Source: Bolinopsis microptera (lineage: Eukaryota > Ctenophora > Tentaculata > Lobata > Bolinopsidae). Taken from it: a DNA stretch of 64,000 nt. The position numbers and the translations under genes were made by a program. This document shows positions 33,947 to 64,000 of the stretch, piece by piece. The stretch is taken from the NCBI RefSeq assembly GCF_026151205.1, contig NC_087078.1, forward strand, positions 6,403,675 to 6,467,674. Direction: 5' to 3'. A model generated the notes under the pieces. The model saw nothing but the letters and a program-made list of their open reading frames with translations. It was not told where the DNA came from and did not search any database. Numbering within the stretch: position 1 is the first letter of the stretch; each line of letters begins with the position of its first letter.

Positions 33947-34401
33947 TCACTTCTGGGGAAGATTAACACAAATAATGCGATTAGGATCCGGTCATGCTTA
34001 CATCAAGTACTCTGGTTAGGAATTGTTTACCTTGTGACAAAGGAAAGATGAGGAGTCATGAAAGACCGGCAACAACGATGTAGAGATAAGAGGAGATAAG
34101 AGAATAGAAGAAGAAAGAGAGGTAGCTGAGGGATGCACGACAGGACAGATGCACGACATGACAGAGAGCTACGCCTTTATGGAAACTTTATATGTCTGTG
34201 GAGTGTGGATAATGATAGAGTATTTTATCTTTTCATGAAATTATGATAGATTGTACGTATGAACTTTTGGTTTCCTATCTTTGAATAATAGTAGTTATGT
34301 GATTATAATATTGCTATATGTCAATCAATGTGATTTACGGTACTGGATTTCTTCTGTTATTTTTATGATAAAAGATTTGATCTAAAATACTTCAGGTATT
34401 C

Positions 34402-36257
34402 ATGGCATCTCGGTTTTTGAATGGCGTAGACCGGAATCCAAACTTTTCTGACCAGTTAATCAAGCTTATTCCTAAAACCGACATTCATTGTCACCTTGAT
34501 GGGTCAATCAGATTAGAAACTCTGGTGGATCTAGCTAAAGAACAAAACATATCATTACCCTCATATAATCTTGATGAACTGAGAAAGACTGTCTTCAAGG
34601 AGTGCTACACTGATTTGGATGATTATCTTGTTCCTTTCCAATACTCTTCCGCTGTATTAAGAAATGCAAATGCTTTGGAAAGGGTAGCATTCGAAGTTGC
34701 AGAAGATTGTTACTCAGAGGGTGTGAGATATTTTGAAGTAAGATTTGCTCCACATTTGAACGCTGTGCCAGGAGAACTGTCAGTAGAGGATGTCATTATT
34801 GCTGTGAACAATGGATTGAAGCGTGCCACTGATACATTTAATGGTATAGATGATGATGTTCATAAGGGAGAGGCTCCTGAATATATGTATGGAATTATTG
34901 TATGTGGTATGAGATTTTTTAATGGTCACTTTTCACCATTCTTCAAAAACTTTTGTGAAATTTTCAAACATGAAAGCAAGAAAAAGATGTTTGGGATTGC
35001 AACTTTACAGCTTGTAAAATTGGCTGTTCACATGAGAGATACCCTGAATATTCCAATTGTTGCTTTGGATATTGCTGGAAGCGAAGCCAGCTTTCCTGCC
35101 ATAGATCATGCTGAAGCTTTCCAGTATGCTCATGAGAATCATATGAACAAAACAATTCATGCTGGTGAAGCTTATGGTCCAGAGAGCATATTCCAGGTTG
35201 GTCTCTCAGATACATAGGATTCAACATATGCAAAAGATCAGCTTATAGGCAGATATTTATCAATTGAAAACTTAGCACTTATTTTGAATGTGAATATTTT
35301 TATGTGAGATAACTTTATCCACAGGCAGTGACTGCTTGCTATGCTGAACGAATTGGACATGGATTAAACATGTTTGACACTTCATTCTTCCATCCTGAAA
35401 CTCCTGTGGTAGACAAACAGAAATATGTCGATGGAATCATCCGGTTCATTGCTAACAGAAGAATATGTGTTGAGGTCTAGTATTTCAAATCACTGTTCTT
35501 ATCATCTTTATAACCATTTTGTAGTGTTGAGTAATACATGTAGACTGTCACAAATTTAACCTTTGGTGTTGCAGGTTTGTTTGACTAGCAATTATCAAAC
35601 AGCTCCAAAGCTTAGAGCTGCACACCCTGATACACACCCTCTGAAAAGAATGATGGAGGAAAAGCTTTGTGTTTGTCTCAACACTGATAATAGGTTAACT
35701 TGAACTTTGCTGATGTTTTCTCCTGATATTTTCCTCATCAATGTATTCTCTCAATTCTATAAGAGGAACTTATAGGCATAATACTCAATGAAACAAGAAA
35801 TTTCAATGAAACAAGAAATTAAATTTTAGCACATTTTAATTTTAGCACAATACTGATTTTTTTCAGGATGGTATCAAGAACAACCATGTGTGATGAAATC
35901 AGACTAGCTGTTGATGTATTCAAGCTGAGTAGAGATGATCTTTGGGAGTTGATAAGCAACGGATTTAGCAGTAGTTTTATGCCTGGCAGCTATGCAAATA
36001 AACTGGTAAATTTTGCTTGTTTTGTAATATTGAAGTGATAGTCTTTTGCATTGATTAGATTTTGTCTCCTACTACTGAAGTTCGTGATATTGTTTGTAAT
36101 ATATTTGTAATCTGCTACATTTTTTATCCTCGATCGTCAAATGAGTGGTGCAATGAAATTCAATTCTGATATTTTACCACCAAACTTGTTTCAGGAATAC
36201 ATGAGGAAGATGAAAGCTTTCTACAATCGAATTATAGACATGTGCACTGCAGCGTAA
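34402..36257 (+). CDS. ADA: Adenosine deaminase (five exons, complete)
   Basis: Exons 34402-35196, 35325-35474, 35575-35693, 35867-36005, 36195-36257; all GT-AG with matching phases, 421 aa. It converts adenosine (and deoxyadenosine) to inosine in purine salvage. Metal and catalytic residues are all present: IHCHLDGS (His29, His31), IHAGEA (His253, Glu256), ERIGHG (His277) and CLNTDN (Asp353). The last box is NTDNRMVS rather than the NTDDP of vertebrate ADA; NTDN is the form I know from bacterial and several invertebrate ADAs. The family is certain, the subgroup (ADA proper or a bacterial-like ADA) less so. The start is the first ATG of exon 1, 6 bases after a TTCAG that could be the acceptor of a 5' UTR intron. 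No signal peptide, so cytosolic. Confidence 0.92.
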
Positions 36258-42800: not shown

Positions 42801-45257
42801 GAGCCTGGTGGCTACTCGTTTAACAGATCTTCTCTTTGTCGCTTGGCCGTTCAACCTTGACTTTCATTCTATCAACACTGTTTAAATTTCGTAATATTCT
42901 AATTTTTACCGAAATTCGTATTGATGGTTGGATAATATCCGGTTGGAAGAGACAAGGACAAATGAAACAGGAAGTTAGGAATGTAGGCCAACTACCGAAA
43001 TTCGTATCTTCTGCTTGTATAAGCACGTTATTAGCTATTTTGTATTTTCGTCCATCGTTAAAATAGTTAAACCTTCCTTAATTTAATGTAAAAAGCTTAC
43101 ATTTTGTGAAACGGTTACTCAGAAGTCTGATCAGACTCTTTAATTGTAATTGTAATGGTCTTAATGATTTGAAAATGTGTTTAAAGCTTACGAGTGTATT
43201 TAATAATATTTATCATATAACTTATATTATAAGTTGATTTAAATAAATCACCTCTCAAAAATTCACCTTCCAAAATAGTCTTGGAGTCCATTTTAGTACG
43301 GATGAAGATCTGTGATAAAGATATAAATTAGGCCCATATAAATTTATATCTGAATCTATGCCGTTAAGCTGTAGCCATTCTTATCTTCCACACAAGTTCC
43401 TCACACTATCTCCGTATTACACTAGTGAACCTCTTTGGACTGGTGTACCTTCCTTTTGCTATGGTCCACAATCAAACAAGTAATAATTATAAAGCTGGTA
43501 AACCAATAGACATCACCTATTAGACACGCAGACATGCATAAAACATGAATATTAATTCTGTGGTCTCGGTGTCCCAATATCAGTAGATGTCTGGTACATG
43601 ACAATGCTGCTTCTATTACTGTCAACTGTCAAGTATTCCAACCGGATATTATCCAACTATCAGTATTTCAATCATGAGACTAATGAACAGCGAACTACTC
43701 CATCATTTGATAAGTCAAGTATTGTGATTGATTGACCGTTTGTTTGAACTTTCTGCTGTGTTTGTTCTTTAGACAATAAAGCGTTTAGCTCTACGTTAAA
43801 AGTTGAATTAAAGCAAGTAGATTGACTTTTCCTGAAAAAGTTTCCTTTATTTCATGGTTTTTTTAATACCTTTAGCTTTTGTCTAGATGATCACATTCCT
43901 TTTAAAAATAGTCGTATTGTTTAAATTTTCTTTGACTTGATTATGGACTTACATCTTTGATCTAAATAAAACAACAACTTTAATAATAAAACTACAGATT
44001 TAACATAACTAGCAGGAACCCGTCTTACCCTAAAGTGGTGTCAAGACTCGAGAGACTAAAATAATTATTACCTATTTAATTCGCGTTTTTGACACCACTT
44101 GAGAGTCCAAATTTTGCGCACTAAAATTATTATTCCTTGGCCAATTTTTTATTTTTTCACGCTGATTCGAAGGCCATTAAAGCATTTGACCCAGTCAAAA
44201 AAGTTTCAGTTGTATATCTTTTACGGTTTTTGCGGAAAGTCGCGTTAAAGTTGATGCCGTGGTGTCAGTAAAATGGCACGGATATATACACATATATATA
44301 TATATCGTCTCGCTTTATATATAGTAAGATATACATGCCAAGTGCCAACTTTTTACGACGCAACTGCATTCAATTTTTGTATGTAGTGCTGCTCATTAGA
44401 AAGTGCTTACTTTGTTGGAAATATTGACAAATATTAATCTAAGGTACTAAGGTAGTCCAAGCCACGCAGTCTTAAGTTCACTTAATTGTCTGGTTTGCAA
44501 CGCAAACATTTTAACAAAAGATATTATATAATTAGGGCAATCTAAAAGTCTATTGTCCACATTATCCGGCTCTTTAAGTCTTTTGGTTCGTTGATATAAT
44601 TGAATTTTAAAATTTTGCAACATATTATCAGCTTTGTCTTATTTACACGCACTGATTTTTGGTTTGCTAAAAAACTCAGTCTCCTGTTTCAAGTATTTCA
44701 GATTTTGAGATAACATTTTCTTGTTTTAAACATTGTTTCGGTTAAAAAAGATAAATTTCACTTTGAAGACATGAAATAATCTGATATTTGGTAACATCAT
44801 TTTTCCAGCGGATGTTTTTTTAAATTGCGCGATTCTATGTTCTTCTTTGATCAATTGCACTCAATTTGGCACGGTATTCCGTTCATGACTTTCCCAAAAA
44901 ACGTGTTGCAGCTGACAGTCTGACTCAGAGACGTGCACCACCGCGATTAGGATATCTCTGGTCTGACAGTCTACGAACATAATAACTAGATTATTAGACT
45001 CCCTTTTCCTTGATTATGAGCATGCTTCAGTTGTGGATATCCTAAGTCCTTATACAAATGACTGATGACTTGCTTTAGAATTTAGGCGTCAGAAAATTAA
45101 GTTTGTTTTGACTCTTAGCCTAACGTTGATTCGTTATTAAACGGCGGACAAAAGATCACTTTTGATACTGTAGATCTTATCCTTCCTTTATTAACTGCTA
45201 CTAAACGATATTGTAGATCTCATTCTCCTTAAGTAACTACTGTAAATCATACTATTA
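39899..45257. other. Intergenic, no gene seen
   Basis: This 5.4-kb stretch between the MYND gene and the GPCR is AT-rich. It holds a short GGGGGAAACT minisatellite (41004-41044), a right-end fragment of the 119-790 element (about 41190-41213) and a (TA)n run near 44290. Open frames up to 76 codons lack any family resemblance. The GPCR promoter is presumably at its right end. Confidence 0.45.
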
Positions 45258-45926
45258 GTGACTATCCCTCTTCAGATGAACCTCTCCATCGGACACTACA
45301 ACGATCACGTAGACATGTTACCAGGACCAGTACACTGGATCATCTGCGACAAAGTCCTATCCATCCTCCTCATCATCTTCAGTATCCTCGGTGTCCTAGG
45401 CAACTCAGCGGCTTGCACTTACTTCCAGAGCAACAATAAAAAAGGGTTAGCACCGAGACTTTACACCATGATCTGTGTTGTTGACATCGCAACCAGCCTC
45501 TCCAGTTTCCCTGCAGCAGTCAGCCTCTTTGCAGAACGGAAACCAGTTCTCTTCAACAACAAAACGTTCTGTACGATATGGAACATAGTGTTCAGATACG
45601 TGCAGATAATCTCCATGTACCTCGTCCTGCTTCTCAGTATCACCAGGTGTATCCTGATCGCCTTTCCGTTTCACAGTATTCAGAAACAGTGGGTTCTTGT
45701 CTCCATTGTCATCTACACTGCGTATCTTATGGTGAAGAATCTGGTGGTCGCTGTTACACCCTCCTTAAACTTGATCAGCCAGTATAGTTCAGATGTTGCT
45801 TATTGTTACGATTGGTTTGGGGAGAACGGAACTAGGACAGGAATGATGATAAAATATGTGGCGTTCATTGTCGAATCAGGAGTTCCACCCATCTTAACGT
45901 TCATCAGTTTTATCATAACTGTTTAT

Positions 45927-45939
45927 AAGATCAGCAATG
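45927..45939 (+). repeat. Target-site duplication of the LINE, left copy
   Basis: AAGATCAGCAATG (13 bp) is repeated exactly at 47652-47664, at the other side of the LINE. These bases are codons of the GPCR third intracellular loop. Confidence 0.95.
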
Positions 45940-47651
45940 ACCCTCGACAGCAAGCTCAATTTCAATGAACATATCACCAATACCACCAAAAAAGCTACGG
46001 CATCCCTTATGCAATGTAGAAGAGCTGTCGGCCCCACTTGGGGTATGAGCCCTAAAACATGCAAATGGATGTACACCGCTGTCATCAGACCTATTCTATC
46101 ATACTGCTGTAGTATATGGATTAGGGCAACCCAAACAGACACCAACGCGAGGAAGTTCAAACGAGTTCAGGCATTGGCATTGAGAATGATGTCTGGTGCC
46201 ATGCCTAGTACTCCCTTCATCGCACTGAACCACCTCACTAACACTCCAGATATCATACTTTTCCTGAGAGGTGAAGCAGCAAAGGGCACAGCCAGGCTTC
46301 AAGCATATGGAAGCCTAACCCTCGAAACTATCGCCCCCAGAAAAGGTACCATCACAACTCACACCACTATCAACAAACAATTCATGGTAGACCTCAACAT
46401 ACCACCCAAAGCAGAGAGAGACCTATCTATACCAACCATGATGCTTGAACGACGCTTCACGGTCACCACTCCTGGAGCTGACAACATTGAATATAGAGGC
46501 TCACTCCAAAACACCATCGACAACATCCCCAGTGAAACCATCACCTGCTACACAGACGGGTCACGCACAGACTCAGGTAGCGGGGCTGGTTATATTATCA
46601 CCACAGACAACAACAACACTACACTAGATGAAAGATCATTCAAGCTTCCTGATTATTGCACCGTTTATCAAACAGAACTCACTGCCATCATCGAAGCTTG
46701 TAAATATCTATCAACTTACACAAACACACATATCATCATATGGTCAGACAGTCTCTCCTCTATTCAAGCTATATCCTCACCTTCAACGAGGAGTAGAACT
46801 ACTAGAGACTGCTACGACACCCTCAATACACTCGGATCCACTAACACCTTAGAGATCAGATGGATAGCAGCACACATCGGATTGTGGGGTAATGAAAAAG
46901 CAGACGAGCTGGCCAAAAATGGCACAACCAGTGAATCCACTTTGAATTGCCCAATTCCACAATCTTACATCAAACGCCTGATCAACGACAAAGTCACAAA
47001 ACTTAATCAAGAATCATGGATTACTAATGGTCCCAGACACACTAAACTGACACTTGGACATAAAAACATCAACATCATCAAAAATCTCAACACTACACTC
47101 AGTAACAACAGACAAAATTACAGAACTGCAGTGCACCTCATCACGGGACATTGTGGCCTCAACAAACACCTACACACCATTCACAAATCAGACACAAGTG
47201 CTTGTCCTAAATGCGGCGACGGAGAGGAGACTGTCTCACACTTTCTCGGACAGTGCCCGGCTATTGCCCAAATAAGAGGTCAATATTTCCGGGACTACTA
47301 CCTCTCTGTCAATGACATATTCGACAACCAACACATCTCCACCATTGTCAACTTTACAAACCACACTAAACGCTTAGTGGTGCCAGAGGAGTTGGACCAG
47401 ACAGGTGTAACATAGCGACTACTTTAACGCCGTCTTGTTTCACCCCTCTCTTCCACACTCAACCACCACCTAACCGTTTATCTATAACACACCCCACAAC
47501 ACTTACCATCATCCGTGATTACACATCTTGATTCCGCTGGCATCCTCCCACAGGACTGCCATACCCCAGAGGTAGGCAAAGCATCCATATGCTATCCTCT
47601 CGTGGGCCAACCAGGCCCAGCCTCTCTTTAAAAAAAAAAAAAAAAAAAAAA
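45940..47651 (+). mobile_element. Young 5'-truncated I/jockey-like LINE (RT tail, RNase H, CCHC)
   Basis: An open frame to 47415 starts within the RT C-terminus (TLDSKLNFNEHI; MYTAVIRPILSYCCSIW), then a full RNase H: CYTDGSRTDSGSGAGYI (Asp), YQTELTAIIEACKYL (Glu), IIWSDSLSSI (Asp) and GNEKADELAK (Asp). It ends in a cysteine-histidine knuckle, CPKCGDGEETVSHFLGQC. A 3' UTR and a poly-A run (about 47631-47651) follow. An RNase H after RT is typical of the I group and relatives. The flanking 13-bp duplication is perfect and the frame is undamaged, so the insertion is recent. The first ATG of the frame is supplied by the target site. Confidence 0.93.
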
Positions 47652-48290
47652 AAGATCAGCAATGGCAATGAATCTGATTCTATTATCTCTCAAATCAGGA
47701 GAAAAACTGTAAATCTATTTCTCCCTGGTGGAAAATGTTGGAAACGTGCAGGAGATGCCCCTCCTCCAAGGCGATGGGGTATTGACTCTAATCATTTAAC
47801 AGCCTCAGGTGCAAAGGCTGATACAGGCATGCAGTTATTGCAAATGCACGACAAAAACGACAAATTAAAGGTAGCCAAAAGGGCAAACAAAGTCAAAGAA
47901 AAGAGGAAAGCTTCAGTCACAGTTGCTATTTTCACCACGATTTTTCTCCTGTGTAACCTTCCTTTTTTCGTCGTGGTTCTCAAAGACATTGTCGGTTTGA
48001 ACAACTACTATGACGGCGTTGAGGGAACTAGTCCTTCTGATGCTGTGTTAAACTTGTATGTAGCTGGATATGCATGGATTTTAAGCAGACTTCATTTCAC
48101 TGTGTTGAATGCTATGTTGAACCCAATTATGTACTGTTTTCGAATGAATGGGTTTAAGTTTTGGCTGTTGACTAAGTTTAGTCGAAAGGGGCAGCCTTCT
48201 GTAGGAGTAGGATTAAGAGGGACTTCCTTGGTTGGACAGTTAACCTGCTCCCAGGAATCAAGGATCTTGAGGCGAAATCTGACTATTTGA

Positions 48291-49864: not shown

Positions 49865-52800
49865 TCACTTATCTAATGTCGGCACCGATGTTTGAAGTGA
49901 AATAACATCCTGATAAAGCATATCCCCTTTAGTGGTGGAGATATGTTGATTTGATCCTCCTGGCCGGTCTAGTCGAGCATAAACACCGGACGTGTTTTCA
50001 GCCAACTGAGTGGTGTATTTGCTAATTGTATTGTACACACCTGTATCTTCAACATTCATTTCTTGGTTAACTGGGAGGAGCTCTTTGTTCTTGTTTATGG
50101 TTGAATAAACAAGCTGATCATCCTCAGATGGTTCCTCAGTCAGTTGTGTTATTGTATTAGTATTCAATAAGAGCGTGTCTGCATACTCCTTGCCCACATC
50201 AGTGATCTTCATTTTGAAGTCACGATTGTTGCCAGATGTTCCGTATGTCTTTTCCTCTTCGTTTCCTGAGTCATTTTGAAGATGGCTGAGGTGAGAATAA
50301 ACTTCCTCTTTCTCCTTTTCTGGAAACTCGGATTGGCTGTCTGTCGAGTATGAGGATTCTTCGTTGATTGTTGCGTTAAGATTATACACTGCAGTTTCTT
50401 CATGATGCCCGATTTGGAGTCTATTGGAAAGTGCTGACTGTTCCAATTGATCGTGATTTGAGTAAGCTTCTATTGGCTCTATGAAGACATCAGCATATTC
50501 CGGCTCTACAGTATTCTCAGTTGCATTAACATTAAGGTTATTGAGTGTTGAATAGGCAACCTCTTCACCATTAAAGCAGATCTTATTAATCAGATGAGAA
50601 GCAGATTGATTTATCTTTGTCGGAGTGCTTTGATTCTTCTCACCAGTATCAAGATGTGGATGAATACCGGGTGCATTTCCTTCAGCCAACTGAGTGGGGT
50701 ATTTGCTAATTGTATTGTACACACCTGTATCTTCAACATTCATTTCTTGGTTAACTGGGAGGAGCTCTTTGTTTATGGTTGAATAAACACGCTGATTATC
50801 CTCAGATGGTTCCTCAGTCAGTTGTGTTATTGTATTAGTATTCAATAAGAGCGTGTCTGCATACTCCTTGCCCACATTAGTGATCTTCATTTTGAAGTCA
50901 CGATTGGTACCAAATAATCCAAATGAGCTTCTTTTGTCATTTTTGGAGTGATCTTCAAGATGGCTGAGGTGAGAATAGATTTCCTCTTCTTCTTCGTCGG
51001 TATAGTTGGATTGAACGCCCTTTGAGTTTGATTGTCCGTTGATTGATGAGTAAAGATCATACGTTTGAGCGTCTTCATGAACTTGGATTTGGACTCCCTT
51101 TTCTGCTGACTGTTCCTCTTCATCGTGGTTTGAGCAGGCAGCGTGGAGCGGTTCAAGTAGAATTACAGTGTCATCAGCATATCCTGCGTCTTCGGTATTC
51201 TCAGTTGCATTAACATTAAGGTTATTTAGTGTTGAGTAGACAACCTCTTCACCATTAAAGCAGATCTCATTGCCCCCAAGATGAGTTTCATATTCCCCGC
51301 CAGCATCAACATATTCATCCGTCACATCTTCCACATTTTCTCGTGCATTGCCTTTACTTTGTTTGCAATGTTTCAATAAGAAGAGCCCGATTATGCAGAA
51401 AAATAAAAAGAGTAGTCCTGCACCAGCTGTTGCTCCAGCGATTATGGCGATATTCATATTTTTCTTGGTTTTTGAATCGTCTGTTTTTTCATCCTTGTGA
51501 GTAGAGCAGTTAATGGATTTGCATTGATCACAGTCACCTCCAGTCTTTCCTTCTTGGCATATCCTCGCTCCTGTGGTTTGATTACACTGGTAGTTTCCAG
51601 GAACTGGTCCACAGTGCACATTACACTTACCTTCTGGGTAATAATGTGTGGCACATACAGCACAGTCGTATCCATCAAAGTTACTCTTGCATTGATCACA
51701 ACTCTGTCCTATCTTTTTGTTTTTACACTCATCGCAAGCGTCTCCTGATTTTCGCTCGTCGCATATTTTCTCTCCTGTACTTGTGTCACAAGTGTAGTTA
51801 CCTGGTTCTGGTTCACAGTAATTGTCACATATCTCTTGTGGGTAGAAGTGGTTCCAGCACTCCTTGTCTCCTAATGTATCGCAAGTGAAGTTAGCTGAAG
51901 TGTCGTTACACAACTTGGAGCAATTTTTCCCAAAGTGGTGAGTGAGGCATTGCTCACAATTTGATCCAGTTCTGTTCCCAACACACTGCTTTACTCCATC
52001 ATCACTGCAAGTGTAGTTTCCCTCCTCGGGCTCACAGACCACATTGCATTCTCCCTCTGGGTAATAATTACCAATACAGTGCTCACAATTATCTCCAGCC
52101 TTCTTACTATAGCAGATCTTCTCTCCTGTACTTGTGTCACACGAGTAGTTTCCTTCCACTGGTTTACAGTATGTGTCACATATCTCTTGTGGGTAGAAGT
52201 GGTCCCTGCACTCCTTGTCTCCTGATCCATCACATGTATAGCTTGTTGAAGTTTCATTACAGAACTTAAAACAATCCACTTTGTAGTAGTTAATCTTACA
52301 ACTTTCACAATAAGAACCATCCCAATTTCCCTGGCAATTCCTTTCTCCGGACGGTTTGCAGTCGTATTTCCCCACTTCTGGCGAGCAGAACACATTGCAT
52401 TCTCCTTCTGGGAAGTTATTCTCAACACAGTCTTCGCAGTCTTCTCCAGCCTTCTTACCATAGCAGATCTTCTCTCCTGTAGTTTGGTCACAAGTGTAGT
52501 TACCTGGGACAGGTTCACAGTAATTGTCACATTTCTCGTCTGGGTAGTAGTGGTCCCTACAGTCTTTGTATCCTGATTCATCGCATGTGTAGTTTTCATT
52601 TTGGGAGCAAAAATTGGAACAATCCTTTCCGTAATAGTTTGTCTCACAAGAATTGCAACCTCGCCCAGTAAAGTGCTGATCACAGCTTATCAGTTTATAT
52701 TGGATAATGAGAGTTGCGGTTTTTGTTGTGTAAGTCTCTTCGATCCAACTGGAACGTTTCGTAACATTGGAAAATGGTAGCGTCAAATCACTCATTGTTC

Positions 52801-53434
52801 TTATGAAATCATCTTTGTTTGGATGTATATCTTCATCATACACAGATATAGAAAAAATTATATCATTATTTGTAGGAATCATTAAATCAATCGGATCTCT
52901 CAAGCCATCCACTGTGCTGAAATGAACTGTTGCACTGTTCGCTGTGTCCTCAGTTCGAGCAATTGTATAGGTTATATTACCGTCCGTATCGTGGAATTCA
53001 ATAGGTTTAAAGTAGAAGTCACACCCACCTTCAAACCATCCATCGCAGGATTTTGAATCTGTGTAAGTCAGAAATTGCACTTGACCTTGTCCACTGCAGT
53101 AAAACCCAGCCTGTGAGTGAGTTTCGAATTGCAATAGAATTAAATGATGAAAATTCTATTCAGTATTCGTACCTACTATTTGTACAGAAACCATAGTTGA
53201 GATGCAATCATTAATCAATATTAGCTGAAAGCAATTTTTTCCAACCAATGAGCTACCAATGAGTCTGCATACTCCACGCTGCCCTTACGTTTTCACGTTT
53301 CATGTGACCAAACGAATACGCGTAAACGAGTCCAAAAGAAACAGTAAAAGTAGGAAATATATAAAATTCTAATCTGGCTTAAATAATCTTACCAAAAGAA
53401 GTTGTCCTGTTACCAAGAATACTAGTGCTCTCAT
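49865..53434 (-). CDS. Receptor A: MNNL-like, multi-DSL, TM, poly-tyrosine tail (complete)
   Basis: Exon 1 is 53393-53434 (MRALVFLVTGQLLL, signal peptide core), exon 2 is 49865-53110, phase 0; 1095 aa. Residues about 15-155 form a C2-like N-terminal domain resembling the Notch-ligand MNNL module. Residues about 157-550 hold roughly a dozen DSL-type cysteine modules (C-x6-YYG-x2-C-x3-C ... NYTCD ... GEKIC ... AGxxCxxC). One TM helix is at about 567-594 (IAIIAGATAGAGLLFLFFCI). The 500-residue tail has 25 tyrosines, 12 in YxxI/L/V form (VYSTL, LYSSI, IYSHL, VYNTI, VYARL and others), and a 228-residue tandem duplication. Expected at the plasma membrane; the tail motifs are the kind bound by SH2 proteins after phosphorylation. 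Function is unknown; a recognition or signalling receptor is inferred. Confidence 0.88.
49960..51285 (-). repeat. Tandem duplication inside the receptor A tail (period 684 bp)
   Basis: Copy 1 (about 50645-51285) and copy 2 (about 49960-50600) both start at ICFNGEEV.YSTLNNLNVNA and continue through DFKMKIT(N/D)VGKEYADTLL, NTNTITQLTEEPSED, VYSTINK and VNQEMNVEDTGVYNTISKY. The offset is 684 bp (228 codons), measured at the ACCTCTTCACCATTAAAGCA block. The middles are more diverged. Near the end, VYARL of copy 2 is IHPHL in copy 1. Confidence 0.85.
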
Positions 53435-54387
53435 CTATCTGCCTGCTGCTACCACCAAACTGTCGGGGCATAATGAGTACATCAAAAAATACAAGTCTTC
53501 AATGGCATTACAAATGTGGAAAGAGGTAAACAATATTTGCCAGCACGATGTAAAAAAGGATGTATTACTGAGTAGTGAGTATACACGATGTGAGTATTAA
53601 CTTGACCCTGGTCGGAGTTTGAACTTCCTCTTAACTGCTCGATCTACTCCTTAAACATATTGAGGTATTGACGTGGTACTGTTTCAACTTATTGACGTGG
53701 TAGAATTCAACTTACTACGGAGACACAACTCAGTACTCAACACAAGCATTTCACTCTCAAATTACTTGTTAATTCTATGAAGTGTAGCTTTAATATTTGG
53801 CTATCAAAGTATTAGTAAACAAATACTGATGAGTTTTGTCTGCATTTCCAGACTGAATGTTATGATGAGATGATGTTAAATTGTGCATATTGCAGTTTTT
53901 AAATCCTTTGCTAAACTACACGAAATAAGATGACAACTTTTTGATCATTTGTATTGACCAATTTAGTACTATTAGTATTATCGATGGTTCACTCTGCCAT
54001 TAACGTTTTCAATTACGTCTCCGTACTTTTCATAATTTCTGACATTTTAATATGTCACACTTTGTAATTCTGTGAATATTTGAGTACATTGAAACAAATC
54101 ATCTAGTCTAATCATAATCTGAAATTTGTAGTGAAAATCAACATCAAAATGAATTTTATTCTCATTCTACACTCGAACTCGTACAAAATAATAATTTGAA
54201 TGCCCAATGCTTGAATTTTATTATAGTAAAAATGACAATGATCAATAGTAAATAGAAAAAAAATTCATGATTTAAAAATCCAATAACTTCCAAATTACTC
54301 GTTATATGATGAAAATATGAATAACAATATGCCACGAATAACTTAACATCGACGCACTTAAACCCACTTAATTAAACACTCCTCAAA
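53435..54387. other. Spacer between receptors A and B
   Basis: About 950 bp holding the presumed promoter of receptor A (right of 53434) and the 3' end of receptor B. No repeat or other gene was recognised. Confidence 0.5.
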
Positions 54388-57300
54388 TCAAACTAATTCA
54401 GTAACTGTAATGTAAGTAGCTTCTTCCCCACACTCATCTTCAGCACCAGGATTACTAAACATCACGTGTTCATCTTTCCCTCTGCTCTTCACAAACGCCA
54501 CATCAGCATACATCTCACCATCTTCCACTGGAGCAGCTGTCGAGTTTCTGGAATTTCTTTTGTTCAATTGAGCATAGACATTTTGGTCTTCATCTGCGGG
54601 TTGATGATTTGCTGTTGTGATGGTGATATCAGCATAGGTTTCATCTTCCTCGGACTGGTTGTCATGGATATTGTGAGGCTTGGTGGTCCTGTCTAGTCGG
54701 GAATAGACATTTTCTTCGTCTGTTGCTGGGAAATGTTCCGCATACCTATCTTCTTCCTCAAAAGCTTCTCTCTCTGCTTGGGTATTATCCTCTTTTGCTG
54801 TTCTGTCCAACTTTGCGTATATATCTGGTTCATCCGTTGATACAGAAATCACATGATCTGCGTACCTTTCTTCTTCTTCACGATCTTGTCGCTCTCTTTG
54901 GGATTTATTCGATTTTTCTCCTCTGTCTAACTTTGCATAAACATCTTGTTCATTCACTCCGGGAAAATTTAACTGATTTTTGGCGACTGTTACCATAGAG
55001 GCGTCTGCATACCTTTCTTCCTCTTCCTCCTCCTCTTCCTCCTCCTCCGTATTATATTCACTCGGTATCATGGTGGTCTGTGGTTTGGCTTTAAGAGATT
55101 TACGAGATCTGTCCAGTCGATCATAAACATCTTGCTCATCTGTCGCTGCTGGTGAAAGAGGCCGTTTATCTACTGTTGCATAGACCGGCGATTTATTAAT
55201 AGTTGAGTATAGAGCACAAGGATTTTCAACCAGCTCAATATGATCATTTGAACATTCTCCTTTGCCATTCTTTTGTCTCCTCCTGGCTGCCACTAAAATC
55301 CCCAAAAGTACCAGGAGAATGACCAGTGCGACCCCTCCACCAGCCCCTCCAATAATTGCAGTTCTGTCAGCGTCTTTTACCTTTTCTTTATGTCCACCAT
55401 CATCAGGAGCTACACAGTTTTTATCCGCTAGTGCTTTGGAGTTTAAACATATCTTGTTACCATCTTCAGAGCAGTTGAAATTCGTGGTTTCCTTACAGAA
55501 CTTTGCGCATGTTCTCCCATAATAGTTTTCTATGCAAGATGTGCAGTCTGGACTAGCTCTGTTTTTAACACATAGCTTCTCTCCATCATCACTGCAAGTG
55601 TAATTACCCTCCTCGGGCTCACAGAGCATTTTGCATTCTCCCTCTGGGTAATAATTATCAATACAGTGCTCACAATTATCTCCAGCCTTTTTACCATAGC
55701 AGATCTTCTCTCCTGTAGCGTTGTCACACGAGTAGTTACTAGGTTCAGCAAGACAAAACTTATCGCACTGCTGTGCTGGATAGTAGTCTTCCCTGCAGTC
55801 TCTGTCTCCAGTTTTATTGCATGTATAGCCCACTGATGTTTTGTTACAGAACTTTGAACAATCTGTTCCAAAGTAATCTAGGGCACATGAATCACATTCA
55901 GTACCATTCCAGTTTGAAAAGCAAACTTTATCTCCTTGGTCGCTGCAATTGAATTTCCCAGTTTCTGGCTGACAGAACACACCACATTTTCCTTGCGGAT
56001 AGTAATTCACTGCACACTGGTCACATTGTTTTCCAGTTGTTCTGTTCCCACATATTTTCTCACCAGTCGTAGAATTGCAGGTGTAGAAACCGGTTTTTGG
56101 ATTACAGAACGTATCACACTGCTGATTTGGGTAAAAGTTGTCCTTGCATTTTTTATCTCCTGAATCATCACATGTGTTGTTTGCTGTCTCATTACAGAAC
56201 TTGGAACAATCTGGTCCGAAGTAATTGAGAGAGCATGAATCACATTCAGTACCATTCCAGTGTCCTAGACAAACTTTATCTCCTTTGTCACTGCAATTGT
56301 ACTTTCCTGTTACAGAAACACATGATTTATCACATTGTTGTTTCGGATAGAAGTTGTCCTTGCAAACTTTGTCTCCTGATCCATCACACGTGTATTGCTC
56401 AGTTTCGTTGCATAACTTGGAACAATCTGATCCATAATAATGATTGATACATGAATTACAGTCAGCACCATTCCAGTTTCCTAGACACACTTTATCTCCT
56501 TGGTCGCTGCAGTTATACTGTCTTGAAACTGGCTCACAGAACACATCACATTGTTGCTGTGGATAGTAGTTGTCTTTGCAGTCTTTTTGTCCTGAATCAT
56601 CACATCTGTATTTGGCAGTTTCGTTGCAGAAATCGGAACAAGTAGGTCCATAATAATGAGTAATACATGAATCACAATCAGTACCATCCCAGTGTCCTAG
56701 ACACACTTTGGTTCCTTGATCAGTGCAATTGTACTGTCCTACTACAGGCTTACACAGAACATCACATGTTCCATTAGGATAGTAGTTTAGGGCACAAGAA
56801 TCACAGTCAGTACCTTTCCAGTTTGCAAAGCACACTTTATCTCCTTGGTTGCTGCAATTGAACTTTCCTGTTTCTGGTTCACAGAAAACATCACAGGAAA
56901 TTCCGTAATAATGAGTAATGCATGAATCACATTCAGTACCATTCCAGTGTCCTAGACACACTTTTGTTCCTTGATCAGTGCAATTGTACTGTCCTACTAC
57001 AGGCACACATAGAACATTACATGTTCCATTAGGATAGTAGTTTAGGGCACATGAATCACAGTTTGCTCCAACAAAACCTATTTTACATTGATCACAGTTC
57101 AGTCCAGCTTTATTATTCACACATATTTTATCTCCAGTTGTACTATCACAAGTGTAGTTTCCAAGCACAGGTTTACAATACTTGTTACACAGTTCGGTAA
57201 AATAGTTCGTTTCACAAAAGTTGCATCCTAGTCTGGTATAATTACCATCACACTGTGTAAGTTTATATTTGACAGTAAATTTCATAACTGGGTTTGAGCT

Positions 57301-57894
57301 GGTTGTTATTGCCTGTTTCCAATTATCACCAACTGATACAGTGCTAAATGGAACCATGAAATCTGTTATTTCTCTTATCTTATCATCACCACTACCCCAG
57401 TCATAATCCCACACCGTGGTAACAATTTTAACTGTCTTATTTGTAGGAATATTGATCTGAATTGGACTGCTGAGCTGACTGACCGTAGTCAAATCAACAT
57501 TAGCTGTGTCATCGGTAGCGTCAGTTCTTACTATGCTCCACAGATCATTTCCGTTACCGTCTTGAATCTTCAGTGGTTTGAAGTAAAAGTCACACTTTTC
57601 ACCACAGGCAGATTTGTCCTCATATCTCATAAACTCGATTTCACCAATCCCTCTAGAGTACAGTTCCTCCTGGTATGAAAGTGAAGAATTTAAAGAATAT
57701 TATTTATGAATAATCTGTTTTATCGATTAAAAAAAAAGAAAGATACTATTTAATCAGTTATAATATCATGATAATGTTGTGCTTTTAAGGAAATCTGTGT
57801 AAATCTGTAGATTTTCATTTAAGATAAAATTCGAGAAAATAGTCGAATAACATACCATAAGTAGGAACTGTAAAACCATAAATAGCACCAGCAT
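54388..57894 (-). CDS. Receptor B: MNNL-like, multi-DSL, TM, poly-tyrosine tail (complete)
   Basis: Exon 1 is 57856-57894 (MLVLFMVLQFLLM), exon 2 is 54388-57669, phase 0; 1106 aa. The same gene plan as receptor A. The N-terminal C2-like domain starts ELYSRGIGEIEFMRYE and is followed by about 15 DSL-type modules with many N-x-S/T sites. The TM helix (about 783-807) is glycine-rich at its start (IIGGAGGGVALVILLVLLGI) with an RRR stop-transfer. The tail (about 300 aa) has 14 tyrosines, ten followed by xxI/L/V. It is built from a repeated couplet: an acidic stretch plus YAD(x), then about 15-25 residues later (D/E)x(V/I)Yx(K/R)LDR (VYDRLDR, VYAKLDR, IYAKLDR, VYSRLDR). Such paired YxxL motifs recall ITAM/ITIM tails, although the -2 residue often departs from the ITIM rule. 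Confidence 0.88.
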
Positions 57895-58506
57895 CCGCAC
57901 AACAAAGCATCAATACTTCAACTAGTATCCATGAATCAACCTACAACTGAGAAAACGCCAGAGTTACAAAAGGGATAAGATAATTCAGTTGCTCGCTGTT
58001 GTGCATACGTCAGTTGTTAGCGGTAGATTCGAGTGTCATTCATATGCTATCAGGTTTCTCTTTGTCAAGGGGTGAAACTTAAGAATTTGGTTCTATCCAG
58101 ATAATATGATGCTGAGCTGGGAGCACTTTTCACCTTCAGACGTTTTGCTTTAGATACTTAGATTCAATAGTATTCGGGCCTAATTTCGTAAAACTTGGAT
58201 AGTTGTACATTGTTGTGAAAAGAAACTTGATTATCCTAATATTTTGTTCGTCATTCGTTAGAAGTTTTATGTTCACTTAAGGATAAACTCTAATTTTGGT
58301 CTTATCTAACATTATTTTATCGTATCGAAGTGCACGACTTAAGTCAAAAGCAGAAAGTTGTGAAACTTAAAACTGACAATTTGTTACCATATGTCCGACT
58401 TGTAAATAGAGAAGGGCCCCGAGTATTATTTATTAATCAACTATATACAGCAAACACAAGATAATATAAATTAAATCATAAAATCGAGTGGCCGAGTAGT
58501 CTCGAC
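57895..58506. other. Spacer upstream of receptor B / 3' end of LINE
   Basis: Contains the presumed receptor B promoter and, at about 58400-58506, the 3' UTR of the minus-strand LINE. Its exact 3' end and target duplication could not be resolved. Confidence 0.45.
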
Positions 58507-61500
58507 TCACCCATAGCTTCTCCATAGACGTCTATCATGAGCTTTGTACACTAAATCGTTGAAATTACTTAAACTAAATCTTTTATTTACAATCACAATA
58601 ATTTGTTTTGTCATAATGTCTTTTAATAATAAATCAAATAAATTTGAACGAGGTCTGCCCCTCCTTCCTTTGTAGTCAAAACATCCTAAACATGCAAATC
58701 TGAAAGATAAGAAGGCGGGAGTGTCATCACCGCTTCTGAGAACGTGCCCAAGCATCTTCCATCTTGCTTTCTTGATCCTTTCAGTAAGGGGTCTGACATT
58801 ACATCTCTTATATAAATTCTCGTTACTGATAACCGTAGGCCAATAGGTGTTGATTATCTGTCTCAGATGCTTCCTTTGAAGAACGTCGACAGATGCCATT
58901 ACGGTTTCAGGAGCAGCCCAGCTGCTACAGTTATACAACAACACTGAAGTGACAAGAGCTTCGTACAGCTTCAGCTTTCTACTCTCACTGATCTGAACAG
59001 AACTATTCAACCAGACTTTCTTGTAGGTGTAGAAGGCAACATTGGCTTTGTTGCGTCTGTTGACAATATCTCTTTCTGAACAGAGCTTTGATCCTAATAG
59101 CACTGACTCTCGCCACTCTTCATCTCCTCTAATTTTATTGCCATGGGCATCTAAAGCATCTGTATCTGCCAAATACACTCTTGTAAACACCGTCTTTGAT
59201 TCGTTAACAAAGAGACTCCAATCCTTTAGTATATCACTGGCAATCTCTAGTATCTTCACCAGGCTCTGACCATCTTCACTCAGAAGCTCAGCATCATCAG
59301 CATAGGCGGACTCTAACGGGAGGCCTCTATCAGAGACTGGGGGGTTCGGTCTAGGAATCGTGACACTGATCACGGCTCTGATGTGATTCAGGGCACCGGC
59401 AAGGGTCAATGTAAACACTTTACCTGCCAGACTGTCTCCCTGGTAAGCGCCAATATTAATCACAAATTCACCAGACTCAGATCTGTTGACCGTCACCTTG
59501 AGCTTTGTATTTGAGAGGAGGTACTGAACTAGGCGAATGTCGTCTCTAGAGCATCCTGCATCAATGAGGAGGTTAATGATGGTCTGTCTGCGGATAGTAT
59601 TAAACGCAGCGGTCATGTCAATGTTGATTTTACTATACTCAAACTCGCGCCTGGTAACCACTGATGTCAACATTCTCTGAGACCATACCAGGTCAGCACA
59701 ACTGCGACCCTGCTTGTATGCCGCCTGCCAAGGTCCAGTGTACATATCAACGTGGTAATTGATTCTGTTCAAGGCTACGAGGGATAGGACTTTTCTAGTT
59801 CCATTTAGCAATGTGAGGGGCCGGATAGACTTTATCGGACCTCGGGGTTTTCCTGGCTTCTGAAGGGGTGTCAGGATACCTTCTCCAATAGCTGGGATGT
59901 ATGTGTTGGTCTCAAAGGAGAGATTGTAGATCCTAGCCAACTCACAGTGGAGGGGATATCCAGCAGCTTTCATTAGCTCATTAGGTATACCGTCAGGGCC
60001 ACACGCTCTACCGGATTTCAGCTTCATAACAGCACGGCCAACTTCTTCAGGTGTTATGGGACAGAGGAGGCTTCCAGGAGGGTCTATGAATGCTGGGAGG
60101 TGGGGTTCATCTTTGTCATTGAACTCATTATTAAAGTATTCTTTAATAGCTTCTGCTTTTAATGAGTCAGAACCTAAGGTGTTCCCGTCTGCATCGTGGA
60201 CAGTCACTCCGTCTTTCTTCATCCTACTCTGGGCCAAAGTTCTATTCGCTTCAAACATGCTTCTGCAGCTGTCGGTGTTGTTGATGACATCTACTAGGGC
60301 GTTAGCTGCGGCCTCATTGATGGATTTCAACCTCTTTTTGATGGTACGTTTGAGATGGTTGATTCTTTTTCTGAGGTCACTCCTGTCGCTTATCCCTGTG
60401 AGGCTACATTCTTGCTGAAGGGACTTTCTCTCTGCTGAAAGTTTAACGACAGTTGGATCGTCGCTGTACTGATGAGGCTTCCCCGGGGGCACTTTACCAA
60501 CCACCTGGACGGCACATTTACTCAATATACCAAATATATCAGAATTTTCAGAAATAGCATTATTAGTTAAAACTCTACAATCAATATTACTTTTAAAGGA
60601 ATCAAAAAATTTAGACTTAATATCAGAATCATTAAGGCGATTGACATCAAACCTTATTTTGTCAGACCTGGGCCGCTTATGTACAATGTATTCACAACCA
60701 AGTTTAAAACGTGCGACCACAGGTTTATGGTCAGATTTCACAAAATCACCGCAAAAAGAGCGGGAGTCTGTTAAACAGACTTTAAAGTTAGTACGACATA
60801 AAATATAATCAATTTGTTTAAAATAGTTCACAGTGTCTTTTGAACCCTTGGGTCTACCCTTGGGAACACATCTAGCCTTCCAGGTGGTAATATGCTTCGC
60901 TCTGTGTTGGAACGCAGTATTGCACGCAAACAGACCATTATCAACAATAAAGTCCAGTAGGAACTCACCGTTCCTGTTTCTCAGACCATTACCGAACTGA
61001 CCAATATGATTATTAAGGCCAGCATCATACTCTTTCCTACTGCATCTCCCAAGGCGGGCGTTAAAATCTCCAGCAACAAACAAATCGAATCGAGCTGGGA
61101 TATTGATAGCAGTTTTCAGATCATTGAAATATGATTGTAACAATGGGGAGTTACCTGTGACCCTACTGATGTCATCATCGACAATCTTCTTGGTTGGTCC
61201 GTACACGTTAACGATCCTGATCATACGATGAGATCCGTTGTGTTCTGTGAGTCTTATATCAATGAAAGCCACTCTGTTACTAAGTGATCTCCATGCAACA
61301 ATAGAAGGTACAAGGGCTGGGCAGATTAGAAAACCGAGACCATAATGATACCAATTGTCTGATTGGGCTAGAGTTACAAGTTTGTGACCGTCAATAATTG
61401 TTTCCTCGAAGTCTCGGCATTTTGTCTCTTGGAGACACACTACATCAAAATGATAACGTTTAGCGTCACTTACTAAATGTTCTCTCCTAAGAATGTTACC

Positions 61501-61614
61501 TTTAATACCATTGAGGTTCCAACTTGAAATGTTCAGAGTCGAAGACATCGGCATAAGGAGAAGTAAGGTGAGCAAAGGTAGACTTCTAGCGAGCACGTAT
61601 GTTACAACTGCCAT
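58507..61614 (-). mobile_element. Intact-frame APE-RT LINE (RTE-like) between receptors B and C
   Basis: One frame of about 1,000-1,035 codons. AP endonuclease: NISSWNLNGIKG, CLQETKC, VNVYGPTKK, FVAGDFNARLG, NTAFQHRAKHITTW, QIDYILCR, KSDHKPVVA. Reverse transcriptase: GPDGIPNELMKAAG, RPLTLLNGTRKVLS, INIDMTAAFNTIRR, GAYQGDSLAGK and the catalytic ESAYADDAELL (about codon 778). The C-terminus has RWKMLGHVLRSGDD and GRRGRPRSNLFDLL. The single-ORF layout with that C-terminal motif suggests an RTE-like clade. ATGs at 61614 and 61548 are both possible; the second sits just before the endonuclease, the first would add a hydrophobic leader. No internal stop is present, so the copy may be young or active. 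Confidence 0.9.
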
Positions 61615-62908
61615 TCTGCTAGCGGGGGGCGTCACTCCATTCCATCCTGAGTATTAGAATAAATAATTTATATTTCCTTATGTTTAGTAGAGCTCAAGCT
61701 ACTTAAACAAAAACAAATACCTCAGTCAGGCCTGATAGCTCCATTACAAAAGTGACAGTCGACGCAAATGTTAACGAATATCGTAGCTTAATACTAAAAA
61801 CTAAACTTTCAAATTCCCATTTCTATAATTCCTTGTAACGGAATAGCAGGTTTCTTATTCTCACGCGGAAGATGGCTCGTCGTCTACTCAAACAGTATTT
61901 ATCGTATCATCTTTGCAAACTCGCATATTTCTTTTGACCACCCACAAGTATGATAGTGGGTATGAACGGGGAGTGGGGATTGGGGAGGAGAGAGGGGCTG
62001 TTTATATTAGCTATGGTGGTCGGAGCCTCATAAGTCACAATTTAGTGTCCCTGTTCTGACACAGTTTTTGTAGTTCTGACGCCGATATATTCACAAAATT
62101 TAGATAAAATATCTAAACTAATGCGCTGTACAAAATAATACGCTGGAGAATTTAATCAATAATTTTGTAATCACTATACAAACCACTTCTAATCTATTGT
62201 CGATAGTAATAGTGGAATAATTTCGACTGACAACTCTGCCAAATCTTGGTTCATGTTGTGCCTCACCACATCCTCACCACATCCTCGATATGCTGATTCT
62301 ATGCGACTAATAATTTTATGAACGTCTCTCCTCAAGAGTTCAAGAGTTAGAACCTATTGGAATCACCTTCCAATCATAGGGATTTCATAAGTCACAATTT
62401 AGGGTCCTAGTTCTGACACTGTTTTTGTAGTTCTGTCGCCGATATTAAATTAATTTCAACTGTAAAAAATAATACGCTGGAGAATTTAATCAATAATTTT
62501 TGAATCACTGTACAAACCACTCCTAATCTATTGTCAATAGTAATAACATGCATTAGATAAAACATACAAAAACGTGTCAGTTATCCGATTTATAAACGGA
62601 ATTATCAAATGAGTACTGAACATGGGATAGTCTTATATGTTAACAAATTCACTCGTATTATGAAAAAGTTACCTGATAATCATAACATACATTTTGAAAA
62701 TAAGATCAAAACACTAATTAATAACATACATTGAAAAACAACTGAAATATTTAGCACGCCAAGTTCCTTAGTTCGTTAAGTTTGTAGCAAACAATAACTC
62801 AAACCAATAATAAAAATATAATACTTTAAGTTTAGAATTTGACAACAGTCAGATTCCTTAATCAGTTCATAGGAATAATTACGACTCACAACTCTGCCAA
62901 ATCTTGGT
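61615..62908. other. Spacer with duplicated fragments of the receptor C 3' region
   Basis: Two direct copies of a block with AGTCACAATTTAG.GTCC, GTTTTTGTAGTTCTG.CGCC and ATACGCTGGAGAATTTAATC lie at about 62030-62215 and 62388-62545. A decayed copy of the end of receptor C's last exon is at about 62232-62305. Otherwise AT-rich and non-coding. Confidence 0.6.
62232..62305 (-). pseudogene. Decayed copy of the receptor C terminal exon
   Basis: CTGCCAAATCTTGGTTCAT, TGTTGTGCCTCACCACATCC and TATGCTGATTC match the region 62894-62965 that encodes the receptor C C-terminus and stop. Here the ACCACATCCTC unit is doubled and the segment coding DYVR is lost, destroying the frame. It is evidence for a past tandem duplication of the gene's 3' end. 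Confidence 0.6.
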
Positions 62909-64000
62909 TCATCTAATGTTGTGCCTCACCACATCCTCGATTCGTACGTAATCGTATGCTGATTCGTCTAGAGCAGGTTCAGTTTGTAGCACGACATTAT
63001 TGTAGAGATGACCATTGGTGGGTGAGGTAACTCGGAGAACAACATTGCCGTAGTTGTGTTCAGTCGAAGGGATTGTTTCAGCAAGGTTGGGAACTGCAGT
63101 ATTTATAGCGTTATTATTACCACATTGCTGGCCTCGACATTTTTGAGCTTTCTACGTAAGTGTAGGATATACAATCCAACCATTATTAATGTTATGAAGA
63201 AAACCGCTACCACCCCTGACGATATCCAAACTCCTATATTGTGTTGCGCTGCTTTGCCTGAAAATAACTATAGTTTTTATCACTACGCCATCGAAAATTA
63301 TGACTGTACCACAGTTAAAGCAGAAATATCCAATACTTTTCCAGAATATCGCCTATTGAATTGAAAACAGAATGGATGAATATCTTGACGTAAAATATTC
63401 ATCATTAATATTGGTAAATAAGTCGATAACACTATTTACTTCAACAACGGTCGTGGTGGAGCATTATATAACAGGAAATCTTAAAAAAAAGTAACGGGAA
63501 GCTAAATTCGTTGGTTATCAGTGTTGTACATAAAAGTATGAAGAGATAAAAATAACAGCCAATTACAATTAATGGCAGCTGATATTTGGCCGCTGATATT
63601 TGGCCGCTGATATTTGTTTTTCTAAAGATAGCATTCTAACCTTCTTTGCATTTGTTTCCCTCCACACAGATCCTCTCTCCATTGTCCGAATCACAAGTGT
63701 AGTTTCCCTGTGCTTCATTACAGTGCACAGAGCAATTCTCTCCAAAATGGTTTTCGATGCAATTTTCACAATTTCTTCCTTCTTTGTTGATATTCTGGCA
63801 CTCATCACAGTCTTCTCCCTTCTTGCCCTCCACACAGATCCTCTCTCCTGTTGTCTGGTCACAAGTGTAGTTTCCTGTAACCGGTTTACAGTGTGTGTCA
63901 CATATCTGTGGAGGGAAGTAATGCTCTTTACAGTCTTTGTTTCCTGATCCATCACATGTATAACTAGTATTAGTAGTCTCCTGGCAGAATTTTGAGCAAG
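62909..64000 (-). CDS. Receptor C: DSL-module receptor with short YxN tail (5' part off window)
   Basis: Exon 63641 to beyond 64000 encodes DSL-type modules like those of A and B (CSKFCQETTNTSYTCDGSGN; CKPVTGNYTCDQTTGERICV; ENHFGENCSVHC), ending at a GTTAG donor. The next exon ends at 63257 and encodes a TM helix (VWISSGVVAVFFITLIMVGL YILHL). The tail (62909-63093, stop at 62909) contains HNYGNVVLRV, HLYNNVVLQT and SAYDYVRIEDVV. Joining TM to tail needs either a 62-bp intron (63094-63155) or a frameshift; both keep the same tail frame. YGNV and YNNV fit the YxN pattern preferred by Grb2-type SH2 domains. Unlike A and B, this gene has an intron before the TM and a tail under 70 residues, so it may differ in signalling. 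Confidence 0.75.

Follow-up and report, generated by a model that had tools for sequence, protein, structure and literature searches.

A 64,000-nucleotide stretch of the genome of the ctenophore Bolinopsis microptera (NC_087078.1, positions 6,403,675 to 6,467,674 in assembly GCF_026151205.1; hereafter the window) contains two complete-looking genes, A and B, and a damaged relative, C, that we read with moderate confidence as members of a multigene family of type I phosphotyrosine recognition receptors. These receptors would resemble paired receptors and not Notch ligands. The original prediction, made from the sequence of the window, had described three head-to-tail minus-strand genes with Notch-ligand-like ectodomains. 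The ectodomain assignment was supported, with DSL modules identified by Pfam and a C2 fold by one model of moderate quality. The gene arrangement was supported in part, as A and B look complete and no intact third tail was found in the window.

Genes A and B lie head to tail on the minus strand within 49.9–57.9 kb of the window, and their open frames span 1096 codons in A and 1103 in B. Splicing was predicted from GT/AG signals and from comparison with paralogs, which gave two-exon products of 1095 (A) and 1106 (B) residues. Each predicted product consists of a signal peptide encoded by a mini-exon, an N-terminal C2-like domain, an array of DSL modules, one transmembrane (TM) helix and a tyrosine-rich tail. 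Candidates for the signal-peptide mini-exon, a feature noticed earlier in A and B, were found for both genes (Table 1). A similar short hydrophobic exon running from an ATG to a GT donor was found at 17 of the 20 loci scanned (some of which gave several candidates; no chance estimate), or at 18 if locus L011, with donor GTGAGC, is included. None was convincing at L017, and A′, a related copy of A, was scanned from the wrong start and provides no test. Prediction supports the presence of a signal-peptide exon and a probable N-terminal Notch-ligand-type C2 domain in the family. Gene A carries an internal duplication in its tail (window 49997–51271), whose period is about 680 bp.

Arrays of DSL-type modules had been proposed for A, B and C. 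The Pfam DSL profile (PF01414) matched B with 243 bits over 14 stretches, A with 68 bits over 5 and the C fragment with 41 bits over 3. A family module profile built from 106 distinct DSL modules counted 15 modules in B, 9 in A, 3 in the C fragment and 13 in one L016 frame, with repeat numbers from 2 to about 15 among the profiled members. As read from the translations, modules often share an end loop: where the array is tight, the last loop of one module is also the first loop of the next, and the units comprise about 30 residues with four cysteines. Another EGF- or laminin-type fold with no DSL match would have contradicted the assignment. A and B score as DSL, as did eight of nine paralog frames for which DSL was the top Pfam family, although paralog D (L001:4025–5533) scored higher as EGF_laminin (31.6 bits, above cut-off) than as DSL (21.9 bits, under its cut-off). 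In paralog L011b, EGF_laminin was also above cut-off (25.8 bits) beside DSL (96 bits). In A and B themselves no EGF family reached its Pfam cut-off: EGF_laminin fell short of it in A and was absent from the list for B. Pfam listed no canonical EGF family in the nine paralogs and no kinase domain in A or B.

These domains raise the alternative that the genes encode Notch ligands that have diverged and expanded into a Delta-like family, which would tune Notch in cis or trans and use its tails for ligand endocytosis. The C2, DSL and TM layout fits such a family, the C2 fold matches Notch ligands (see below), the YxxL/I/V sites of the tails would suit endocytosis, and GH[YF] before the fourth cysteine is kept in 2 of the 106 modules. 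However, the Notch-contacting loop of the DSL module is 11 residues long and carries the pattern [RQ][DN]..GH[YF] in JAG1, JAG2, Serrate and Bolinopsis loci L023–L025 (6/6), whereas it is shortened to 7–9 residues in 105 of the 106 family modules (11 in the remaining one), none of which contains the pattern. Loci L026 and L027 are family-like, with an 8-residue loop. The absence of EGF families above cut-off in A and B, a tail motif that occurs far beyond chance and the finding of the same short tail behind unrelated ectodomain exons also argue against Notch ligands, an identity that we consider improbable.

The original prediction had called the N-terminal domain C2/MNNL-like. We aligned this domain from 18 paralogs and found four invariant residues. 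Pfam MNNL matched none of the 18, and a profile search of the Protein Data Bank (PDB) with the domain returned no Notch-ligand match. The profile-profile (hhalign) score against MNNL was 17.35, a value exceeded by 6 of 200 column shuffles. Single-sequence structure prediction of the B N-terminus gave a predicted local distance difference test (pLDDT) value of 33. AlphaFold, supplied with an alignment of A and B only, yielded one folded model in five (pLDDT 64, predicted template-modelling score 0.58, all-beta), the others having pLDDT values of 30–34. The top Foldseek match of the folded B model was DLL4 (E 1.7e-4), followed by Jagged1, DLL1 and the C2 domains of cPLA2 and NEDD4; the best matches had E values of 1.7e-4 to 1e-3, template-modelling scores of about 0.5 and root-mean-square deviations of 5–10 Å. 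Comparison with VIA gave Z scores of about 9 to DLL1, DLL4 and Delta and equal scores to the C2 domains of cPLA2 and plant synaptotagmin. Because these C2 domains tie with those of Notch ligands, the model identifies the fold as C2, which is likely. Kinship with Notch ligands is suggested by the position of the domain before the DSL array and by the Foldseek rank, and from its position we judge it a probable Notch-ligand-type C2 domain.

We compared tyrosine motif counts in 19 tails (4331 residues, 203 tyrosines) with those in shuffled sequences; since the set includes related copies (A/A′ and B/B′), the tails are not independent. Yxx[ILVM] was observed 121 times versus 34.7 in shuffles (maximum of 56 in 1000). 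Y[AS]x[ILV][DNT] was observed 60 times versus 1.0 expected (7 versus 0.06 in the B tail alone), and YAD[VIT] 18 times versus 0.2. The tails had been described as ITAM/ITIM-like and rich in YxxI/L/V or YxN motifs. The Yxx[ILVM] enrichment agrees with this description, but the strict immunoreceptor tyrosine-based inhibitory motif (ITIM; 11 versus 7.4 expected, with single matches that include three in A), the corresponding activation motif (ITAM; 0 versus 0.6) and switch motif (0 versus 1.6) were not enriched. The same was true of YxxM, NPxY and YxN (16 versus 16.9, with the short tail class described below represented by L005 only). Tail tyrosines were conserved at 14 of 14 positions between B and B′ and at 24 of 25 between A and A′; as the other tail residues were conserved at 265 of 282 and 446 of 474 positions, there is no clear tyrosine excess over the whole tail.

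Sequence comparison distinguishes at least two tail classes in the family. In the long class, the TM helix and tail are encoded within the ectodomain exon, and the tail repeats Y[AS]x[ILV][DN] in an acidic context. In the second, short class, which by sequence is new here, TM helix and tail occupy their own exon after a phase-1 intron and carry YDNV, YNDVV and YDYV sites; the YxN-type site YDNV recurs in this class, which includes C. Short tails read through in L003, L006 and L018, and L004 matches by tblastn. The frame is lost in the tail of C and cut short in L010 by a premature stop, and in L005 a short-class tail is fused without an intron. L012, and L014 by tblastn, carry instead of the family motif a repeated DGYVPM, a YxxM site that we take to be PI3K-type; the N-terminal domains of these two loci, on contigs C3 and C11, are identical. 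The member at L011:4480–6927 has a tail with a HAHCSEISNE-type repeat array.

Draper, CED-1 and MEGF10 likewise join a cysteine-rich repeat ectodomain to a tyrosine tail, and differ in having an EMI domain, EGF repeats and ITAM/NPxY motifs. On this alternative the family would consist of phagocytic or scavenger receptors whose lipid-binding C2 domain engages dying cells or microbes and drives engulfment. PMC5538765 describes lipid binding by the C2 loops of Notch ligands, and these loops are the most diverse part in the B clade. However, with E values allowed up to 1, Pfam listed no EMI domain in either A or B, and the 19 tails contained no ITAM and only two NPxY motifs. It can also be argued that specialised engulfment would not need two shuffled tail classes. 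We regard a dedicated engulfment receptor as unlikely, though it deserves some weight.

Sequence comparisons indicate that tails and ectodomains have been recombined in the family. The chimera L005 (C7:6829000–6835500) matches D at 95.1% over 1479 bp through the TM helix, and 17 bases after this D-like part its tail matches that of C at 92.7% over 273 bp. In L001, D and C lie next to each other. On a tree of N-terminal domains, tail class changed six times among 17 labelled genes (10 long and 7 short, the labels of L007, L010a and L011a coming from tails that are read in another frame than the N-terminal domain), which was the value reached most often (2137 times) when the labels were shuffled 5000 times. 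Tail class thus has no phylogenetic signal on this tree, and long and short tails occur within the same ectodomain clades. L008a and L009 shared a run of 44 identical variable sites versus a permutation maximum of 26 in 2000, a sequence signature of gene conversion. These findings agree with the sequence exchange and tail turnover proposed for the cluster. Near-identical ectodomains on different tails, as in paired receptors, were found in D and L005 and in the mixed clades.

A genome search with the short tail gave 19 matches, and four places outside DSL loci were fetched (L031–L034). The short-tail exon lies behind a TSP1 array with 13 TSP_1 stretches in L032 (tail of 79 codons), behind Ephrin_rec-like and Sushi exons in L033 (53 codons) and about 4.4 kb downstream of an immunoglobulin (Ig)-like exon in L031 (147 codons). 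This Ig-like exon had no Pfam match, and its best PDB match was an antibody light chain (E 0.0038); no ectodomain was recognised by the exon in L034. From these gene models, which were built from splice signals alone, the short TM/tail exon is a possible shared receptor tail cassette. The long tail gave 18 matches in the genome, and those examined, a set without C7:8703600 and without the copies at 1731662 and 1734087, fell at DSL-type loci. At L035 (C7:1726000–1731500) and on to about 1734386, a family TM/tail fragment is present in four head-to-tail copies, with matches 2425 bases apart.

Searches of the genome (264.65 Mb) identified further copies, in support of the original prediction, with at least 72 matches to PF01414 and at least 80 to B, both lower bounds since part of the candidates were scored. 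By distance grouping the B matches fall into 35–36 places, a count that takes in fragments and also four multi-exon DSL arrays whose kinship is uncertain. The main cluster is at 6.23–6.84 Mb of C7, with another at 1.65–1.73 Mb of the same contig.

Diversity within the family is highest in apex loops of the C2 domain. In the B clade (B, B′, L004 and L006), the loops b1-2 and b5-6 differ between paralogs at 0.70 versus 0.15 elsewhere. In the C clade (C, L003, L007, L008a, L008b and L009) the values were 0.51 versus 0.28, with most of the excess in loop b5-6 (0.66), and the small loops 45 (0.61) and 78 (0.57) were also variable. We picked these loops on the basis of predicted strands once the alignment was in view, which makes the permutation values partly post hoc. 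According to PMC5538765, the counterparts of b1-2 and b5-6 lie at the apex, differ from one human Notch ligand to another and make up the putative lipid-binding site.

A clustered, recombining multigene family with variable tips could also encode homophilic adhesion or allorecognition receptors. The Alr proteins of Hydractinia, another non-bilaterian, are likewise clustered variable receptors with tyrosine tails, but they have Ig-like ectodomains and proven polymorphism. Mnemiopsis individuals reportedly fuse without rejection, which argues against allorecognition, and we give the adhesion or allorecognition alternative a low probability.

Several findings weigh against recognition receptors of the paired type. 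In the B clade, dN was 0.54 in the loops versus 0.077 outside, and dS was raised as well (0.51 versus 0.089; omega of 1.07 versus 0.86). As loop dS is raised along with dN, segment exchange is as likely as selection, and recombination or loose alignment may explain the loop diversity; positive selection on the loops is not claimed. The C2 fold comes from the single folded AlphaFold model. Activating paired receptors have a charged TM residue and an adaptor, and by eye the short-class TM helices have no charged residue in the core. The YxxL/I/V sites could be endocytic signals. The gene models of the unrelated ectodomains are unproven, since the tails of L032 and L033 are short and the Ig-like exon of L031 is about 4.4 kb away. 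Finally, A′, B′, C, L007 and L010 are broken members.

The broken members bring up the possibility that the family is made up mainly of copies of a single receptor that are decaying in a region rich in transposons. B′ carries an insertion and is broken at a reverse-transcriptase open reading frame (ORF), about 1.3 kb has been inserted into A′, and C and L007 are frame-disrupted. In addition, dN/dS for the N-terminal domain only was 0.67–1.00 in six pairs, which is compatible with weak constraint there. However, at least 11 members (A, B, D, L005, L008a, L008b, L009, L011b, L012, L015b and L017a) have uninterrupted frames from the N-terminal domain to the tail stop. Moreover, 13 of 16 DSL-array and tail comparisons gave values of 0.24–0.53: 0.24–0.41 for the DSL array in six of eight pairs (0.87 for L008a–L009 and 1.08 for the L017 pair) and 0.35–0.53 for the tail in seven of eight (0.75 for D–L005, which have different tail classes). 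Decay as the general explanation is very improbable.

Recognition receptors remain our preferred reading. The tip of the C2 domain (loops b1-2 and b5-6) and the DSL stalk would bind a cell-surface, lipid or microbial ligand, and receptor clustering would allow Src/Syk-type kinases to phosphorylate the tail tyrosines. SH2 proteins would then bind the phosphorylated tails and produce an activating or inhibitory signal set by the tail class. In this way the receptors would work like vertebrate paired receptors while being built from Notch-ligand parts. Their role would probably lie in recognition, immune or phagocytic, and not in Notch signalling. The vertebrate paired receptors KIR, LILR and SIRP and the teleost LITRs are also tandem families with near-identical ectodomains on alternative tails and sequence exchange. 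They differ in having Ig ectodomains and either a canonical ITIM or a charged TM helix with an adaptor; adaptors were not searched for here. More tentatively, and at somewhat less than even probability, the family would represent an immune-type architecture independent of Ig or leucine-rich-repeat ectodomains.

Table 1. Receptor genes and the intervening retrotransposon in the window
Feature	Position	Strand	Remarks
Gene A exon 1, signal-peptide mini-exon candidate MRALVFLVTGQLLL	53393..53434	-	phase 0; exon scan
Gene A exon 2, encoding a C2-like domain, some 9 DSL modules, a TM helix and a tail of 500 residues that is internally duplicated	49865..53110	-	
Gene A N-terminal C2/MNNL-like domain	52682..53101	-	from the alignment with B and another 16 paralogs
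Gene B exon 1, signal-peptide mini-exon candidate MLVLFMVLQFLLM	57856..57894	-	phase-0 GT donor; exon scan
Gene B exon 2, encoding a C2-like domain, some 15 DSL modules, a TM helix and a long tail rich in tyrosine, with the stop	54388..57669	-	
Gene B N-terminal C2/MNNL-like domain	57250..57660	-	AlphaFold model, Foldseek, Z-score comparison
LINE-type retrotransposon ORF between B and C, outside the receptor family	58507..61653	-	RVT_1 and Exo_endo_phos (endonuclease and reverse transcriptase)
Gene C ectodomain exon, 3′ part, 3 DSL modules, phase-1 GT donor at its end	63641..64000	-	5′ part outside the window (L001)
Gene C short-class TM exon	63103..63257	-	frame stops soon after TM
Gene C tail-coding stretch	62909..63151	-	out of frame with TM in this assembly

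The N-terminal domain of gene C is outside the window, at L001:1309–1746. The C tail had been taken as a third intact tyrosine tail, which it is not: the TM frame ends at 63103, and the tail stretch is thus out of frame. Elsewhere in the window we noted an adenosine deaminase exon (34381–35217) and pieces of a rhodopsin-type G protein-coupled receptor flanking a transposon-type RNase H ORF (45246–48290), among which a weak 7tm_1 match was confined to 47532–48290. The genome also contains many ionotropic glutamate receptor genes, a good part of them long single frames (32 ligand-binding-domain matches; C3:15.86–15.94 Mb, C12:11.78–11.81 Mb and others). One such ORF (L040) had the Mnemiopsis protein ML032222a as its best PDB match, with 407 bits versus 243 for the next entry. 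COX1, STING and let-7 queries gave no match in the genome, absences that carry little meaning by themselves, and the single match to a minicollagen-like query read as an interrupted collagen.

The family shares with Delta, Jagged and Serrate the order of signal peptide, C2, DSL and TM, the C2 fold (by model) and the DSL module. It differs in its repeated DSL modules, shortened Notch-contact loop and long tyrosine tails, and in the lack of EGF above cut-off in A and B. Similar DSL repeats occur in another phylum, in Nematostella proteins that have 1–11 DSL repeats, one with MNLL and three DSL, and fall outside Delta/Jagged (Gazave et al. 2009, PMC2770060). The passages of that paper on the DSL-only genes note them briefly, as possibly misassembled, and contain no TM, tail or cluster analysis. 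The 'Delta-like' receptor tyrosine kinase of Capsaspora, with two DSL domains, likewise ties a DSL ectodomain to tyrosine signalling, but according to a review it has a kinase domain and EGF repeats (PMC4810162), and no kinase was listed for A or B. The same review reports a Delta orthologue in Pleurobrachia and no Delta-diagnostic domains in Mnemiopsis. Among the papers listed by topical searches of open-access literature, none described DSL receptors with tyrosine tails or an orthologous family with another function.

A survey of ctenophore immune genes that included B. microptera worked from 20 Pfam domains, DSL not among them, and the terms DSL, Delta and Notch are absent from its main text (PMC11797021). 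About 35 loci of DSL receptors lay outside that survey. The Bolinopsis family provides a case, open to testing, in which C2-DSL modules would serve as receptors, and bears on the role of these modules before or beside Notch signalling, and its tail swapping is of a kind known from vertebrate immune receptors. These data suggest that a very deep animal lineage has a system of recognition receptors that had escaped notice.

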